DNA of 64,000 nucleotides, taken from assembly GCA_002730975.1 (NCBI GenBank), contig PCBO01000004.1, forward strand, positions 1 to 64,000, read 5' to 3'. A model generated the notes under the pieces. The model made no database searches and was not told where the DNA came from. It saw only the letters and a list, made by a program, of their open reading frames with translations. Position numbers and translations under genes: made by a program. Origin of the DNA: Opitutia bacterium (GTDB lineage Bacteria > Verrucomicrobiota > Verrucomicrobiia > Opitutales > Seribacteraceae). Below, one piece after another: positions 7,203 through 64,000 of the stretch (positions within the stretch are counted from its first letter, which is position 1; each line of letters opens with the position of its first letter).

Positions 7203-10200
7203 TTGAATCGAGCTTGCCACCCTTTGCTTATCGCAAGCTTCGGCTTCGCGATACTGGCGAATGCTGTCTTTGCAGTTGGCGAAAGTTGGAACGAAGCTTC
7301 GATTTGGTTTAAAAAGGGAGACGTGATCGAAGTTTCCGCCCCGGCGGAAGCCAAACGAGTTCGTCTCGAAGTACGTAATAAGGAAACAGGGGATTGGGAC
7401 GCGGTTAAGACAGGACACCTTCCGGGATCGCGTGTGGGCAAGATTTACTTGGAGATACCTTTCGACGTGGACCGAAGTCGCGTCCGAGTCAGGTGGAGCA
7501 GTTCCGACCCGCTTCCCTATTCCTTTTACGAAGGCCGTAGCAAATTTGGAGCTAGGGAGGGGGATGCTTCGTTCGCATCCGCTCAATTTCGAACTGCGGA
7601 ACTGGCTATGAGCGCAGTGACGGACAGCGCCGAAGTTTCGGACGACGGCACGGACAACGTACAGGAGTCCGATGTTTGGCGACTATCTGGAGACAGGCTG
7701 TATTTCTTCAACCAGATGAGAGGTTTGCAGGTGGTCGACCTCTCGAAGCCCAATGATCCAAAGGTGATCGCTCGGCACAGGCTTCCGGCATCAGGGGAAC
7801 AAATGTACGTCACCGACGATGGACACTATGCATACCTGCTTGCCCGAAAAAGCGGCCAAAGCTGGCCGTATTCGTCGGAGGTAAGGGTGCTGAAACTGGA
7901 CGATTCGGAGATTACGGAAGTGGCTCGATTAGATCTCGACGCCTCATATCGCGAAAGCCGGATGGTAGGGGACAAACTCTACGTGCTCTCCGAAAAATGG
8001 GAAAAAGACAAGATGGCATGGCAAAACTGGTCCTTCTCCTACAGTACACGCCTCGCCACCTTTGACCTAAGCGACCCCGACAATCCTCAAAAAATCGATG
8101 AGAAAATCCTCGCGGGAGCCCCTCAAGTTATCTCCGCCACAAACAGTAACTTGATGGTCGTCACCCGAGACCCATCCGATTATTACAACAAGCACCTCGT
8201 ACGTGTATTCGACCTCACGGGCTTCTCTGGCGTCCCCGAACAGATAACCGAGGTTAAACCCGGTGGTCGCGTGCTCGACAAGTTCAAGCTCCGTATCCGC
8301 AACGGCATCCTCACCGTCATCTCTCAAGCCTACCGTGAGGGAAACTGGAGAAACCGATATTCATTGCTGGAGACTTTCAAGATTTCATCCGGCAAACGCC
8401 AGGGTGCCATGGAACTGGCCGAACGTGAAACCCTGTACGCCACCCGTTTCGACGGCGACTACGCCTATGTCGTGACCTTTCTACGCACCGACCCCCTATT
8501 CATAATCGACCTGACGAAACCAGAGAAGCCCCGACTCATATCCGAGCTGATCGTTCCCGGTTGGTCCGAGTACATACAGCCAATGGGCGACCAGCTTTTC
8601 GCCGTGGGCGTGGAAGAAGGGCGAGTGACCGCTTCCCTCTTCGACGTTTCCGATAAGGAAAAACCGCGCCTCGCCTATCGGGTGTTCATGGGGCAAGCAG
8701 GAGCCTATTCTTGGAGTGAGGCCAACTACGACGAGAAGGCGATCGGACAGTTGCCCTCCCAAAACCTGTTCCTGATTCCCTTCCAATCATGGGAAGAAGG
8801 AAGATACGTCAAAAAGGTGCAGATCCTCGAAGTGACGAATGCGGGCCTGATCGCAAGAGGCGAAATCACCCACCGCTTTCAAGCGCGCAGGGCGGCCCCC
8901 GATGCAACCGGCTTGCGCATTTTCTCAATTTCGGGGAACGAGCTCAGGGTGACTGATTTCGCCGACCGTGAAAACCCGAAACCCTTGGCCCGAATGCCTC
9001 TCGCATGGAAGGTCGACCGTATCCACCTTTCAGGCGAACACCTTCTCCAAATCGAAGACCAAGGGGGATATTATTGGGGTTGGGGAATGTCCTCGCAGGA
9101 TGCAAACGCCACGCTACGCGTAACAAAAACGGCAACCCCCGATGAACTAATCAGTTCGCTGAACCTCGGTGCGGGCACAATCGCCGGCAGCCTCGTCCAT
9201 GCGGGGAAGCTTCATCTGGCCCTGGCCAACAACGGAAAACTAGTGGCCGAGGTCTACGATTTGGAATCCAACGGTTCCGCAATCAAGTTAGCCTCCGCAG
9301 AGGTAAAACTGAAAAATAATAATAATCGCCCAGAATTGAAGACCTTCATCCTCGACGAAAAAACCGTTTGTTGGGCTACCGTAGGCAAAAAGGGTCAAAC
9401 TTACTTTCCTTACGAATACTGGCGATCAAGCATGATGATCGACGATGCTCTCTACCCCTATCCGACCTATGGCTCGGCAACCGTCGAGGCACACACTTTT
9501 ACCTTCGAGGAAAACTTGGCGGGATCGACTCTTGTTCACGAAGCCAACGCCAGCATCACCCTATCGGGGAATGTCCAATGGAGTGAACCCTTCCTGCTGC
9601 AGGATCGCATCCTGTACGGATCCACAGTCACCAATCATCTCTACGATTCAAAGGAGACTTGGCGAGTCGTGAAATCGGACGTAAACTCCAGTCTCCATGG
9701 ATTCGACCTTACTGAGCCGAAGACCCCCAAGACCCTCGCCACGGCATCACTACCCGGCCTGCTAACCGGGGTACACCAACTGGAAGAAGGCTCGCAAGAA
9801 GCCTATCTTTTCGCGGAAAGCAAGGACACCTCCATCGGCATTTACCGCCCCATGCCCGTCATCCTCTACGACGACTCCGGAGAATTCCAGATCAGACCGG
9901 AGACCGAACGCTATGGTCGCTCTTTGACAGCTTGCGCATACGACGGCACCCTCGCCTATTACCTCGATGAACTCGACCTATCGAGCACCTCTGGCCCCCT
10001 CTCCGTGGCGAAAGGCAACGCCTTCGTCGGTTTGTCGAACTCGCAGTCCTCTGGAGTCAATGGCTACCGAATAGACGAGTCGGGCCTCTTTACCAAGACA
10101 TCCAGCCTGTTCAGAGGTGAAAACCTCTCGGAGTTGGCAACCGACGGCTCCTACCTGATCGGACGGACGAACAACGGCGTCCGAGTCACCGATCTCAACC

Positions 10201-10802
10201 AAGTCGACTCCCCGTACGAGTGGCCCAAGTCCACGCTATCGGGAAACCTCTACCCTGCCATCGGACATTTCGTCTCGTCCGCAGACGGTATTCGCATACC
10301 CGTCCGCAACTATGGGGTCGAATACTTACCCGCTCCCCCATCCACGGAACGGCGAGCCCTACAAGCCCGCCGTTCGGGCGCGATCGAAAGCTGGACGACG
10401 CTGGATGAATCCTTATTTCGCGTATTTAATGCGGACGAGGTTCCCGTCTCACTCACCCATGCCTCCTCGCCCGGTTGGAAATTCCGACAAGACTCAGCCC
10501 TCGATCAAAATGCCACCTCGCTGGAAGCCCATTGGAAAAGCTTACCGTGGTTTGGCTTTTTTCACGCCCGGAGTTACCCTTGGATCTACCATGCACGGCT
10601 AGGCTGGACTTATGTTTCCGAAGGAGAAGAAAACGCGCTCTGGCTCTGGCGAGCAAAGATCGGTTGGCTCTGGACACGGCCCGAACTTTACCCACACCTT
10701 TATGATCATGCAACCTCGTCTTGGACTTACTTAGACCTTCAAGCGCCCTCCAATACCGTCCGCCTCTACGATCACTCTGCCAAGGACTGGAGAACCGAAT
10801 AG
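7203..10802 (+). CDS. large secreted beta-propeller-domain protein with aromatic C-terminal domain
   Basis: TTG start; repeated LVIVD/propeller-like segments (LQVVDLSKPNDPKVIARHRLP; LFIIDLTKPEKPRLISEL; SLFDVSDKEKPRLAYR). C-terminus ends in WFGFFHARSYPWIYHARLGWTYVS...WLWRAKIGWLWT. Confidence 0.75.
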   Translation: MNRACHPLLIASFGFAILANAVFAVGESWNEASIWFKKGDVIEVSAPAEAKRVRLEVRNKETGDWDAVKTGHLPGSRVGKIYLEIPFDVDRSRVRVRWSSSDPLPYSFYEGRSKFGAREGDASFASAQFRTAELAMSAVTDSAEVSDDGTDNVQESDVWRLSGDRLYFFNQMRGLQVVDLSKPNDPKVIARHRLPASGEQMYVTDDGHYAYLLARKSGQSWPYSSEVRVLKLDDSEITEVARLDLDASYRESRMVGDKLYVLSEKWEKDKMAWQNWSFSYSTRLATFDLSDPDNPQKIDEKILAGAPQVISATNSNLMVVTRDPSDYYNKHLVRVFDLTGFSGVPEQITEVKPGGRVLDKFKLRIRNGILTVISQAYREGNWRNRYSLLETFKISSGKRQGAMELAERETLYATRFDGDYAYVVTFLRTDPLFIIDLTKPEKPRLISELIVPGWSEYIQPMGDQLFAVGVEEGRVTASLFDVSDKEKPRLAYRVFMGQAGAYSWSEANYDEKAIGQLPSQNLFLIPFQSWEEGRYVKKVQILEVTNAGLIARGEITHRFQARRAAPDATGLRIFSISGNELRVTDFADRENPKPLARMPLAWKVDRIHLSGEHLLQIEDQGGYYWGWGMSSQDANATLRVTKTATPDELISSLNLGAGTIAGSLVHAGKLHLALANNGKLVAEVYDLESNGSAIKLASAEVKLKNNNNRPELKTFILDEKTVCWATVGKKGQTYFPYEYWRSSMMIDDALYPYPTYGSATVEAHTFTFEENLAGSTLVHEANASITLSGNVQWSEPFLLQDRILYGSTVTNHLYDSKETWRVVKSDVNSSLHGFDLTEPKTPKTLATASLPGLLTGVHQLEEGSQEAYLFAESKDTSIGIYRPMPVILYDDSGEFQIRPETERYGRSLTACAYDGTLAYYLDELDLSSTSGPLSVAKGNAFVGLSNSQSSGVNGYRIDESGLFTKTSSLFRGENLSELATDGSYLIGRTNNGVRVTDLNQVDSPYEWPKSTLSGNLYPAIGHFVSSADGIRIPVRNYGVEYLPAPPSTERRALQARRSGAIESWTTLDESLFRVFNADEVPVSLTHASSPGWKFRQDSALDQNATSLEAHWKSLPWFGFFHARSYPWIYHARLGWTYVSEGEENALWLWRAKIGWLWTRPELYPHLYDHATSSWTYLDLQAPSNTVRLYDHSAKDWRTE

Positions 10803-60957: not shown

Positions 60958-63900
60958 CTAGCGGGCGAACTTTACCTTTATACCGAGCTTAATAAGTTCG
61001 TTTGATTCGCCAAAGAGAGAAAGTTCGGTCGAGATGAGACTGAGTTGGGTCTCGGACACGCCGTCAAATCCCCGTAGAACAGACAAAGCTTCAGCGATAG
61101 AAGTGGAACTGTGAAGCAAAGAGGAAAGCCTTTCGCTACTCGAGCTATCCGCATCCAACCATTTCCGAGAAGCATAAGAGTAATACCATGGAGCAGAAGG
61201 TTTGGACAGAGACAGGTAGCACCAGGATTTCAGATCGTTGATGTATCCGTAGGGAAATGCATTGCCTGACCAAAACCAGCCAAGATCTTCATTCCACATC
61301 CAGATGTTTTGTTTTTCAAGTATCGAAGAAGATACATAAGTCCAACCCAACTTCTCGTGGTAAACCCAAGACTGCCCAACTTGGTAGAAATAACCGAATC
61401 CATTTGAGTGATTCCAACCAAGAGGAGTAATCATCAAGGACACCTTGGCCGAGTCACTGAGACCTTGCGAGTCGGAGGTCGGACGATCCCGAATCACATA
61501 GGTAAAGGAATCTTCTCCATAAAACCCGCTGGCGGAAGGTGTGTATAAAACTTTGTCTCCCTGAATGCTTACAACGCCAAATTTGGGATTGGATGAAATG
61601 GATAAGGTGAAGTTTTCATCCGGGTCCGGATTGGGACCGTCATTTACGGTAACATCGAGGGAGTAGGAAGCTTGTTTCCCGGAAAACACAATAATGTCAT
61701 CTACAGCCTTGGGCTTATCGTTTAGGGAAAGCACAGATAAAACAATAGAACGATTACTCTCCAACAATCCATCGGAAATCCTGAGGGCAAAAGAATCTTG
61801 ACCATAGAAGTTAGCATTCGGTCGGTAAAAAAGAGAACCGACCCCGGAGACTAGCGTGCCGTAGGCGGGAGGAGATAAAATCGAAAAGGAGACCGATTGG
61901 CCTTCCGGATCAACTGCTTTTAGAACCTGCACTTCACTATCCTCATTGACGGTAAAATCACTCTCAATGAAATAGGGAGGTTCATTAACGTTAGAAACTG
62001 CGGCTTTCAATAACTGCAAAGAAGAATTCAACCCATCACTGGCATTAATTTCCAAATCGTAAACATTGCTTCGAGAACGCTCGAAATCAGGTGACTCCGC
62101 AAATTCCAACCGTGGCGGAGTCACATTTTGGTCGATGACAAAAAAAGCATTATCAAGTTTTCCCGGAACCAAAGAATAAAAAAGAACGCTAACGTTATTG
62201 TCCGATGCGTTGAGATCGAGAACATGAGTCGAGTTGCCTTCCTGAACGGAAGTACTGTAAAGCAAACCCCATGATGGAGGAAATATGGGAGCCACTTCAT
62301 CAACATCCACAACCTGAACGATAACCGATTCGATTACGGTGTAGAGACCATCCGTGGCGTTAACCTCCAAGAAGTACTCATTACCGCCAAACTTAGATGC
62401 GGGAATTTCAAAGTCGGGTGCAACCTTGAACGATAATGCACCAGTTCCATTAACTTCGAACAGGGCCTCGTCGCCCCCCCCGGAAACGACATAATCCGGC
62501 GTGGCACCATCAAGATCCGTTGCATTAAGTTCAACGACGAAGACTCCGTTCTCGGCAACTTTAACCAAGAGGCTACCATTGGTATCTCGGGATGGATAAA
62601 GAGGAGAGGTATCGTTCAGATTGGTTATTTGTATAGAAAATATTTGAGACGCGACCGCCATGCCATCAGTGGCATTGACCTCAAGGTTAAAGATATGTTT
62701 ACGCGAGACTGAAGCATTAGACTCATAATCAGTAGGAGTAATAAAGGACAAGGAGCCTGTTGCATTAATCTCAAAGAAATCCTTTTCGGATCCTCCTAAG
62801 GAATAAGTGAGAGCGTCTCCATCCTCATCGGTAACGTTAACGTCTACAATGAATAACTGGTTTTCAGGAACCATCAATGAGACGGAGGAGTTCCCGTCAT
62901 GGCTTTTGAAAATAGGGGCATCATTCGCATCAAGTACTGTGACTTGAATTAATTTTTCAACAGGAATCGCCTCGACGGTATTGTCGGTCACGAGGACCTT
63001 CACAGTGAAAAGGTTATTGCCATTACCGGAAGAGTTAGACTCGAAATTCGGAGGAGTCATAAATGCAAGGAATCCGGTGGTGGCGTTTATATCAAAGAAA
63101 GCACCATCAAATTCGCTTTTAGACAGGCTGTAGGTGTGGATATCCTCAAGATCGGCATCGGACACGTTCACATCCATGACCGACACTTGGTTCTCGGAAA
63201 CTGAGACTGTATTTGGTGTGGAGAAAGAAGGAGCATCGTTTATGTTGGCGACCTCCACGGTGACTATGATTTCATCGCTCAACCCAGTTGGATCGGTAAC
63301 CTTCAAAGTAAAAGTATCAGTACCATTGAAATCCAAGTTCGGCGAATAGGTAAAAATAGGTGGGTTGCTAGCAGAAGTAAAAGTTGCGTTTCCTCTTGAA
63401 GCATTTGACAAAATGGACCAAGTCAAATTGCCCCCATCCGGATCCGAAGCATTGAGATCCGGGTCTCGCCAGGAAGTGGGGCTACCGTCTTCGTCCATGA
63501 ATACAGTAACTTCAGACCTGCCGGTTATCTCCGGAGGGTCACTGTCGTTAGTTACTATGACGGTGAGGGTTAGGGTGTCCTTGTTGTTAGAATTCCCATC
63601 CTCATAAACGACGACGACCACTTCGTATGTATTATTCGCACCGGCATCCAGAGGACGTTCATAATTTGGAGCATACTTAAACCAAAGATTTCCAGAAGTG
63701 GAGTTAATATCAAAAAAAGAGGAGTCAACCGATGTCGAATCAATGGAGTAAGACAATGCGGAGTTCTCCGCATCCGTGCCATTCAAATCGGACACGTACT
63801 TTTGATTCTCCTTAACGCTCAGGGAAGTGCTAGACGCACCGCCAAAAGAGGTAAACACGGGTGGATCATCTACTTCAGAAACTATAATCGATACATTATT

Positions 63901-64000
63901 TTCTTGCTCTGAACCTCCCGAAAAACTGATCCAAGTGAAAGCATCGTTTCCAGAAAAGTTTCCATCGGGTACATAGGTTGAGGAATTTGTCAATGGATCG
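60958..64000 (-). CDS. cadherin/Ig-like tandem-repeat surface protein with aromatic C-terminal domain, partial (continues off right edge)
   Basis: Repeated cadherin-type motifs (VxENQ..V.DVN..D.DGDALTYSLGG.....FFEINATGSLSF....DYE); C-terminal WVYHEKLGWTYVSS...WMWNEDLGWFW. Reading frame stays open to the window end; the TTG at 63993 is not a convincing start. Confidence 0.85.
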   Translation of the reverse strand, partial: DPLTNSSTYVPDGNFSGNDAFTWISFSGGSEQENNVSIIVSEVDDPPVFTSFGGASSTSLSVKENQKYVSDLNGTDAENSALSYSIDSTSVDSSFFDINSTSGNLWFKYAPNYERPLDAGANNTYEVVVVVYEDGNSNNKDTLTLTVIVTNDSDPPEITGRSEVTVFMDEDGSPTSWRDPDLNASDPDGGNLTWSILSNASRGNATFTSASNPPIFTYSPNLDFNGTDTFTLKVTDPTGLSDEIIVTVEVANINDAPSFSTPNTVSVSENQVSVMDVNVSDADLEDIHTYSLSKSEFDGAFFDINATTGFLAFMTPPNFESNSSGNGNNLFTVKVLVTDNTVEAIPVEKLIQVTVLDANDAPIFKSHDGNSSVSLMVPENQLFIVDVNVTDEDGDALTYSLGGSEKDFFEINATGSLSFITPTDYESNASVSRKHIFNLEVNATDGMAVASQIFSIQITNLNDTSPLYPSRDTNGSLLVKVAENGVFVVELNATDLDGATPDYVVSGGGDEALFEVNGTGALSFKVAPDFEIPASKFGGNEYFLEVNATDGLYTVIESVIVQVVDVDEVAPIFPPSWGLLYSTSVQEGNSTHVLDLNASDNNVSVLFYSLVPGKLDNAFFVIDQNVTPPRLEFAESPDFERSRSNVYDLEINASDGLNSSLQLLKAAVSNVNEPPYFIESDFTVNEDSEVQVLKAVDPEGQSVSFSILSPPAYGTLVSGVGSLFYRPNANFYGQDSFALRISDGLLESNRSIVLSVLSLNDKPKAVDDIIVFSGKQASYSLDVTVNDGPNPDPDENFTLSISSNPKFGVVSIQGDKVLYTPSASGFYGEDSFTYVIRDRPTSDSQGLSDSAKVSLMITPLGWNHSNGFGYFYQVGQSWVYHEKLGWTYVSSSILEKQNIWMWNEDLGWFWSGNAFPYGYINDLKSWCYLSLSKPSAPWYYSYASRKWLDADSSSSERLSSLLHSSTSIAEALSVLRGFDGVSETQLSLISTELSLFGESNELIKLGIKVKFAR

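Follow-up and report, generated by a model that had tools for sequence, protein, structure and literature searches.

Two genes in the window (the whole 64,000-nucleotide stretch of DNA that was analysed) encode large exported proteins that share an aromatic-rich domain, termed here the module (Table 1). The gene of carrier 2 extends past the end of the window: its full open frame comprises 1084 amino acids with the start beyond position 64000, and the true start is a GTG codon with a signal peptide at approximately contig position 64176, outside the window.

Table 1. Coordinates of the two module copies and their carriers in the window
Feature	Position	Strand	Evidence or remark
Carrier 1: 1199-aa exported beta-propeller protein (PF09826), module at the C-terminal end	7203..10802	+	ORF; Pfam E 3e-57
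Carrier 1, predicted signal peptide, TTG start, MNRACHPLLIASFGFAILANAVFA	7203..7274	+	own heuristic score, not SignalP
Module copy 1: predicted five-hairpin aromatic C-terminal domain, ~88 aa, running to the stop codon	10533..10799	+	profile E 5.6e-27
Carrier 1 stop codon, directly 3' of module copy 1	10800..10802	+	
Carrier 2, part within the window: cadherin/Ig-repeat exported protein	60958..63993	-	Pfam Big_9, Cadherin, Cadherin_4/5
Module copy 2: same predicted five-hairpin domain as copy 1	61156..61416	-	profile E 1.1e-22
65-aa tail after module copy 2	60961..61155	-	common to homologous cadherin proteins; no Pfam match

The original prediction had proposed that the two proteins end in related segments, with a matching spacing of W, Y and G residues over about 65 residues. 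The first segment does start at position 10548 as claimed, and the two segments are real and align at 41% identity over 69 residues (BLASTP, E 1e-17). The spacing is confirmed but the extent was underestimated, since the domain spans about 88 residues and copy 1 begins with the tryptophan codon at 10533 and extends through the final sense codon, which ends at 10799. The C-terminal remainder of carrier 1, APSNTVRLYDHSAKDWRTE, corresponds to the fifth hairpin of the module. The second segment, placed at about 61145..61420 of the complementary strand, is likewise present, with refined boundaries, but, contrary to the original statement, it is not the end of the cadherin protein: 65 further residues follow it. 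Similar tails are found in the homologous cadherin proteins L171, L172, L174, L177 and L178 and, more weakly, in L176 and L188. Within one group of large cadherin proteins, to which carrier 2 belongs, the tail after the module measures 63–71 residues, is rich in apparent helix formers and is unnamed in Pfam.

The module follows the consensus WxxSxWFGxFxxxxxxWIYHxxLGWLYxxxxxxxxxWLWxxxxGWxWTxxxxYPxLYxxxxxxWLYxxxxxxxxxxFYxYxxxxW. W, Y, F and H together account for about 30% of its residues, tryptophan for 11.5%, and cysteine is nearly absent; among 61 diverse module sequences, conservation is spaced and includes invariant glycine and tryptophan columns. The AlphaFold2 model of copy 1, computed from an alignment of the 61 sequences, has a mean pLDDT of 92.6 and a pTM of 0.80, and that of copy 2, from 32 sequences, a mean pLDDT of 86.1 and a pTM of 0.72. 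Both models display the same ten short strands, which form five beta-hairpins when pairing is read from strand order; strand pairs in copy 1 include 20–23/27–33, 39–43/47–51, 58–61/66–70 and 80–83/88–91. An internal repeat of about 20 residues is also detected, with a profile self-comparison score of 27.0 bits, whereas 200 column shuffles gave 13.1 ± 2.7 and at most 24.9. By confident prediction the module is thus a compact, folded, all-beta hairpin-repeat domain.

The absence of a Pfam name, as originally stated, holds after wider searching. Pfam and NCBIfam return nothing significant for the module with both proteins, both segments, 22 members and 61 members as queries, and the best PDB hit by profile, XepA, has an E-value of 0.11. 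Foldseek searches of the two models against the PDB and of one model against viral structures give nothing below E 0.6, the best PDB matches having E-values of 0.61 and 0.65, with TM-scores of at most 0.3 among the matches listed. The module is unnamed in the libraries searched (Pfam, NCBIfam, PDB), and no description of it was found in the open-access literature on C-terminal domains, secretion and surface proteins of Verrucomicrobia and Opitutales.

The 3.85-Mb marine Verrucomicrobia genome to which the window belongs encodes many further copies. The copy 1 segment finds 24 additional matches with E-values from 2e-16 to 1e-3, and the profile search suggested with the original prediction, carried out with a 22-sequence profile, returns 26 matches down to 1.6e-30. 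All 42 genomes of the same family (f1), representing four genera, carry the module in 3–39 copies each. Of 177 genomes sampled from the order, 52 have it, spread over 25 of 76 genera, and several of these genomes hold just one or two copies, while a sample of the phylum yields it in 9 of 388 genomes, seven of the nine, the genome of the window included, belonging to the same order. A peptide-pattern scan of 84,980 species identifies 76 loci; the record titles name Opitutales, Opitutia/Opitutae or Verrucomicrobia in nearly every case, and none of 29 pattern matches on viral contigs encodes a relative. In these sequence surveys the module occurs almost nowhere outside the order. One genome titled Deltaproteobacteria (BP6.bin57; G551, locus L183) holds 16 copies and is therefore either a mislabelled verrucomicrobial genome or a case of real horizontal transfer. 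A locus in an 'Akkermansiaceae' bin (L120) is probably a contaminating contig, since the module there is almost identical in sequence to one encoded by the genome of the window. Outside the order, L107 and L114 (G223:C45, C20) contain a divergent, shortened module limited to the first three hairpins, with seven occurrences, several of them clustered on one contig. In the genome of the window, L071 (G000:C140:793-894) is a decayed copy: a 51-codon frame, interrupted by a TAA, contains a fragment of the module.

Position within the protein was assessed on the 143 unique copies whose stop codon could be seen; 129 of these are full length. The proposed C-terminal placement is borne out, as no more than 15 residues separate the module from the stop codon in 110 of the 129 full copies, the median tail being four residues. 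Internal copies occur in L059 and L146, where 579 and 505 residues respectively follow the module, as well as in L143 and L113; two modules are present in each of L146 and L157, and in one further exception an InlB-type repeat follows the module. The carriers are otherwise unrelated proteins of exported type. Their Pfam domains are led by cadherin repeats (29 of 96), TSP3 (18) and Big_9 (14), and further carriers contain Laminin_G_3, FG-GAP, InlB repeats, trypsin, M23, subtilase, reprolysin, FSH1 hydrolase, alpha-amylase or FGE-sulfatase domains. Signal-peptide-like starts, scored with a simple home-made heuristic and not with SignalP, are found in 30 of 41 carriers against 141 of 391 control ORFs (odds ratio 4.8, Fisher p 6e-6), which together with the extracellular-type identity of recognisable carriers agrees with the proposed location on exported proteins. 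Matches are not always C-terminal on signal-peptide proteins: a few copies are internal, and in 11 of 41 carriers this crude test finds no signal-peptide-like start. Two unusual carriers were also seen: in L033 (G000:C34) long low-complexity repeats of the GDGGYGS/GDEGYHT type precede the module, and in L106 (G302:C104), outside the order, a multihaem cytochrome-like protein (Cytochrome_C7, C554, MtrC-like) has a divergent module at its C-terminus.

Orthologous proteins differ in what they carry at the C-terminus, and this is the most telling outcome of the analysis. A trypsin-like protease ends with the module in nine f1 genomes, in two f18 genomes and in three proteins from f20 genomes (one in G161, two in G129). 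At the same place, the protease of G078 and G119 (f20) and of G064 (f24) bears a textbook PEP-CTERM tag composed of IPEPR, a membrane helix and a basic cluster (IPEPRTLPAILGILTLLVVFIRRRR, IPEPRHFAMAFGAVLMLVVGLRRR and IPEPRTWGLLTGFAVFALAAFLRRRK). In these orthologous proteases the module is thus observed to sit in place of PEP-CTERM. The beta-propeller orthologs carry the module in f1, f4, f18 and f21, an unnamed TSP3-linked domain in f7 and no C-terminal add-on in f13. Among the M23 peptidase orthologs, those of f1 and f4 bear the module and those of f18 the TSP3-linked domain. On these two protein families, comparison of the orthologs indicates that the module is an optional add-on. The other unnamed domain, seen in L222, L226 and L227 (f7) and L258 (f18), consists of a TSP3 repeat followed by about 90 residues with ...DLKDW...FLRM/FIRL at the end.

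None of the 143 module tails contains a PEP pattern or a membrane helix, the basic tail is also absent from the module, and TIGR02595 matches none of 61 module members. The PEP-CTERM model gives zero or one weak match in each of 15 sampled f1 genomes; many relatives have 10–45 matches or more. Many f20 and f21 genomes hold both tags, on different proteins, so the two are not strictly alternatives. This distribution suggests that in f1 the module took over from PEP-CTERM, while elsewhere the two coexist. One or two exosortases are encoded in 12 of the 15 sampled f1 genomes, but also in most module-free relatives; being common across the order, exosortase does not discriminate the module-bearing genomes. 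In the genome of the window, L266 (G000:C14:40000-49234) encodes an exosortase with an undecaprenyl-phosphate sugar transferase, a WecG-like glycosyltransferase and a NusG-like protein, neighbours of the exopolysaccharide-locus type when gene identities are assigned by eye. Homologs that exchange LPXTG, PEP-CTERM and GlyGly-CTERM for one another have served earlier as an argument for common roles (PMC3237569), and by the same logic the module would be a functional counterpart of PEP-CTERM.

The explanation that best accommodates these data, to which we assign a probability of about one half, is that the module is a folded C-terminal domain that retains secreted proteins at the surface through non-covalent glycan binding and so does the job of PEP-CTERM. 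A carrier would be exported by means of its N-terminal signal peptide, and the five W/Y-rich hairpins would then hold it non-covalently in the envelope or exopolysaccharide layer of the cell itself, where aromatic side chains, by analogy, may stack on sugars. In this lineage the module would serve as the PEP-CTERM/exosortase tag does in relatives. Both retention at the cell surface and a glycan as the ligand are what we infer from the following. Membership of one domain family, C-terminal placement, exported carriers, the predicted hairpin repeat, the PEP-CTERM swap and the near absence of PEP-CTERM in f1 count for this reading; the internal copies, the single-copy genomes, the f13 beta-propeller without an add-on, the carriers that lack a signal-peptide-like start and the coexistence of tags in f20 and f21 count against it. 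In its broad form the original proposal of an anchoring, sorting or glycan-binding module is upheld, the replacement of PEP-CTERM in orthologous proteases being among the findings that favour it.

The main rival, possible although unlikely, is that the module acts as a secretion or sorting signal for a dedicated export or anchoring machine encoded in these genomes, in the manner of the type IX secretion C-terminal domain, a partner protein passing the carrier across the outer membrane or attaching it. Tentatively phrased, the module would then be the recognition signal of an undescribed Opitutales system for export and surface attachment with its own partner, which displaces PEP-CTERM/exosortase in one family and stands beside it in others. 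One C-terminal domain on many unrelated signal-peptide proteins, mostly at the stop codon and in place of a known sorting tag, is what such a machine would leave, and lineage-specific paralogous C-terminal domains have previously been read as signs of new sorting systems (PMC3237569). In contrast, the internal and doubled copies (L059, L146, L157, L143, L113) are easier to reconcile with a binding module than with a strict sorting signal, and the genomes with one or two copies and the f13 beta-propeller without a module weigh mildly in the same direction. In addition, neither the type IX CTD nor any other CTERM model matches the module, and SprA is found in 0 of 42 genomes, a count to be read with the fact that no positive-control genome matched either.

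If the ligand were instead an external glycan of algae or particles, the module would be a carbohydrate-binding module that attaches enzymes and adhesins to the surface of food or of a host and not to the cell. We regard this as doubtful. The module is indeed a small aromatic-rich beta domain that ends modular secreted proteins, among them an amylase, peptidases and laminin-G-type proteins, its internal and doubled copies suit this role, and many of the records are environmental and, by title alone, apparently marine. However, most carriers are adhesin-like, peptidases or of unknown type rather than polysaccharide hydrolases, and a food-glycan ligand fails to explain why PEP-CTERM is replaced on trypsin-like proteases. 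Carbohydrate-binding modules are, moreover, usually free to sit anywhere in a protein. It is more improbable still that the module is a protein–protein or self-association domain, an aromatic hairpin clip building a surface network or fibre: one domain in many copies on different large adhesin-like proteins of one cell, its high W/Y content and the two modules on one protein would suit such a clip, and no specific finding contradicts it, although many enzymes carry the module too. Chance similarity arising from the aromatic-rich composition is refuted by the conserved spacing with invariant G and W in 61 sequences, E-values to 1e-30, orthologous copies in other families and one confident fold for both copies in the window.

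Surface retention, the preferred reading, would probably make the module a novel means by which these bacteria retain secreted proteins on their surface. It is hard to tell from genomes which proteins these mostly uncultured bacteria keep on their surface, and the module, new to Pfam, NCBIfam and the PDB, makes dozens of them per genome easy to pick out. The PEP-CTERM swap suggests that a folded domain without a membrane helix can do the work of a sortase-type tag. Two questions become testable: what the carriers are retained on, and what has happened to the exosortase where PEP-CTERM targets have all but disappeared, as in the genome that contains L266.

Among known systems, XepA (PDB 6i56) is the sole named weak profile match that recurs with both profiles, but its E-values (0.11–0.35) are at chance level and not significant, and it is a protein of a phage-like element rather than a secreted C-terminal module. 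The type IX secretion CTD (TIGR04183/TIGR04131) resembles the module as a beta-rich C-terminal domain of about 80 residues on unrelated secreted proteins. It is, however, an Ig-like sandwich, whereas the module is a predicted hairpin repeat from a different phylum and has no match to these HMMs (61 members against NCBIfam, 22 against Pfam). Choline-binding modules (Choline_bind_1, PF01473) are also aromatic beta-hairpin repeats of about 20 residues on secreted proteins, whose aromatic residues between the hairpins keep enzymes attached to the cell wall (PMC4471590), and non-covalent surface retention is the function proposed here, by analogy, for the module. Homology is nevertheless not detectable: PF01473 gives a single hit, at E 0.054, among 22 members, no choline-binding PDB chain appears at E ≤10 and none is among the Foldseek matches listed. 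The choline-binding fold is a solenoid whose ligand lies between the repeats; Foldseek matches the module models to no solved structure. As neither a sequence nor a fold match was found, the likeness is one of working and not of membership. PEP-CTERM/exosortase (TIGR02595, PF09721; PMC1569441) differs in its parts, since a PEP motif, a membrane helix and a basic cluster in about 24 residues stand against a folded beta domain of about 88 residues without them. In contrast, the two agree in being C-terminal tags on many unrelated exported proteins, in many copies per genome and on carriers with signal peptides (by the simple score given above); the one exosortase locus inspected lies in an EPS-type cluster, and in the orthologous trypsin-like proteases PEP-CTERM and the module occupy the same place.
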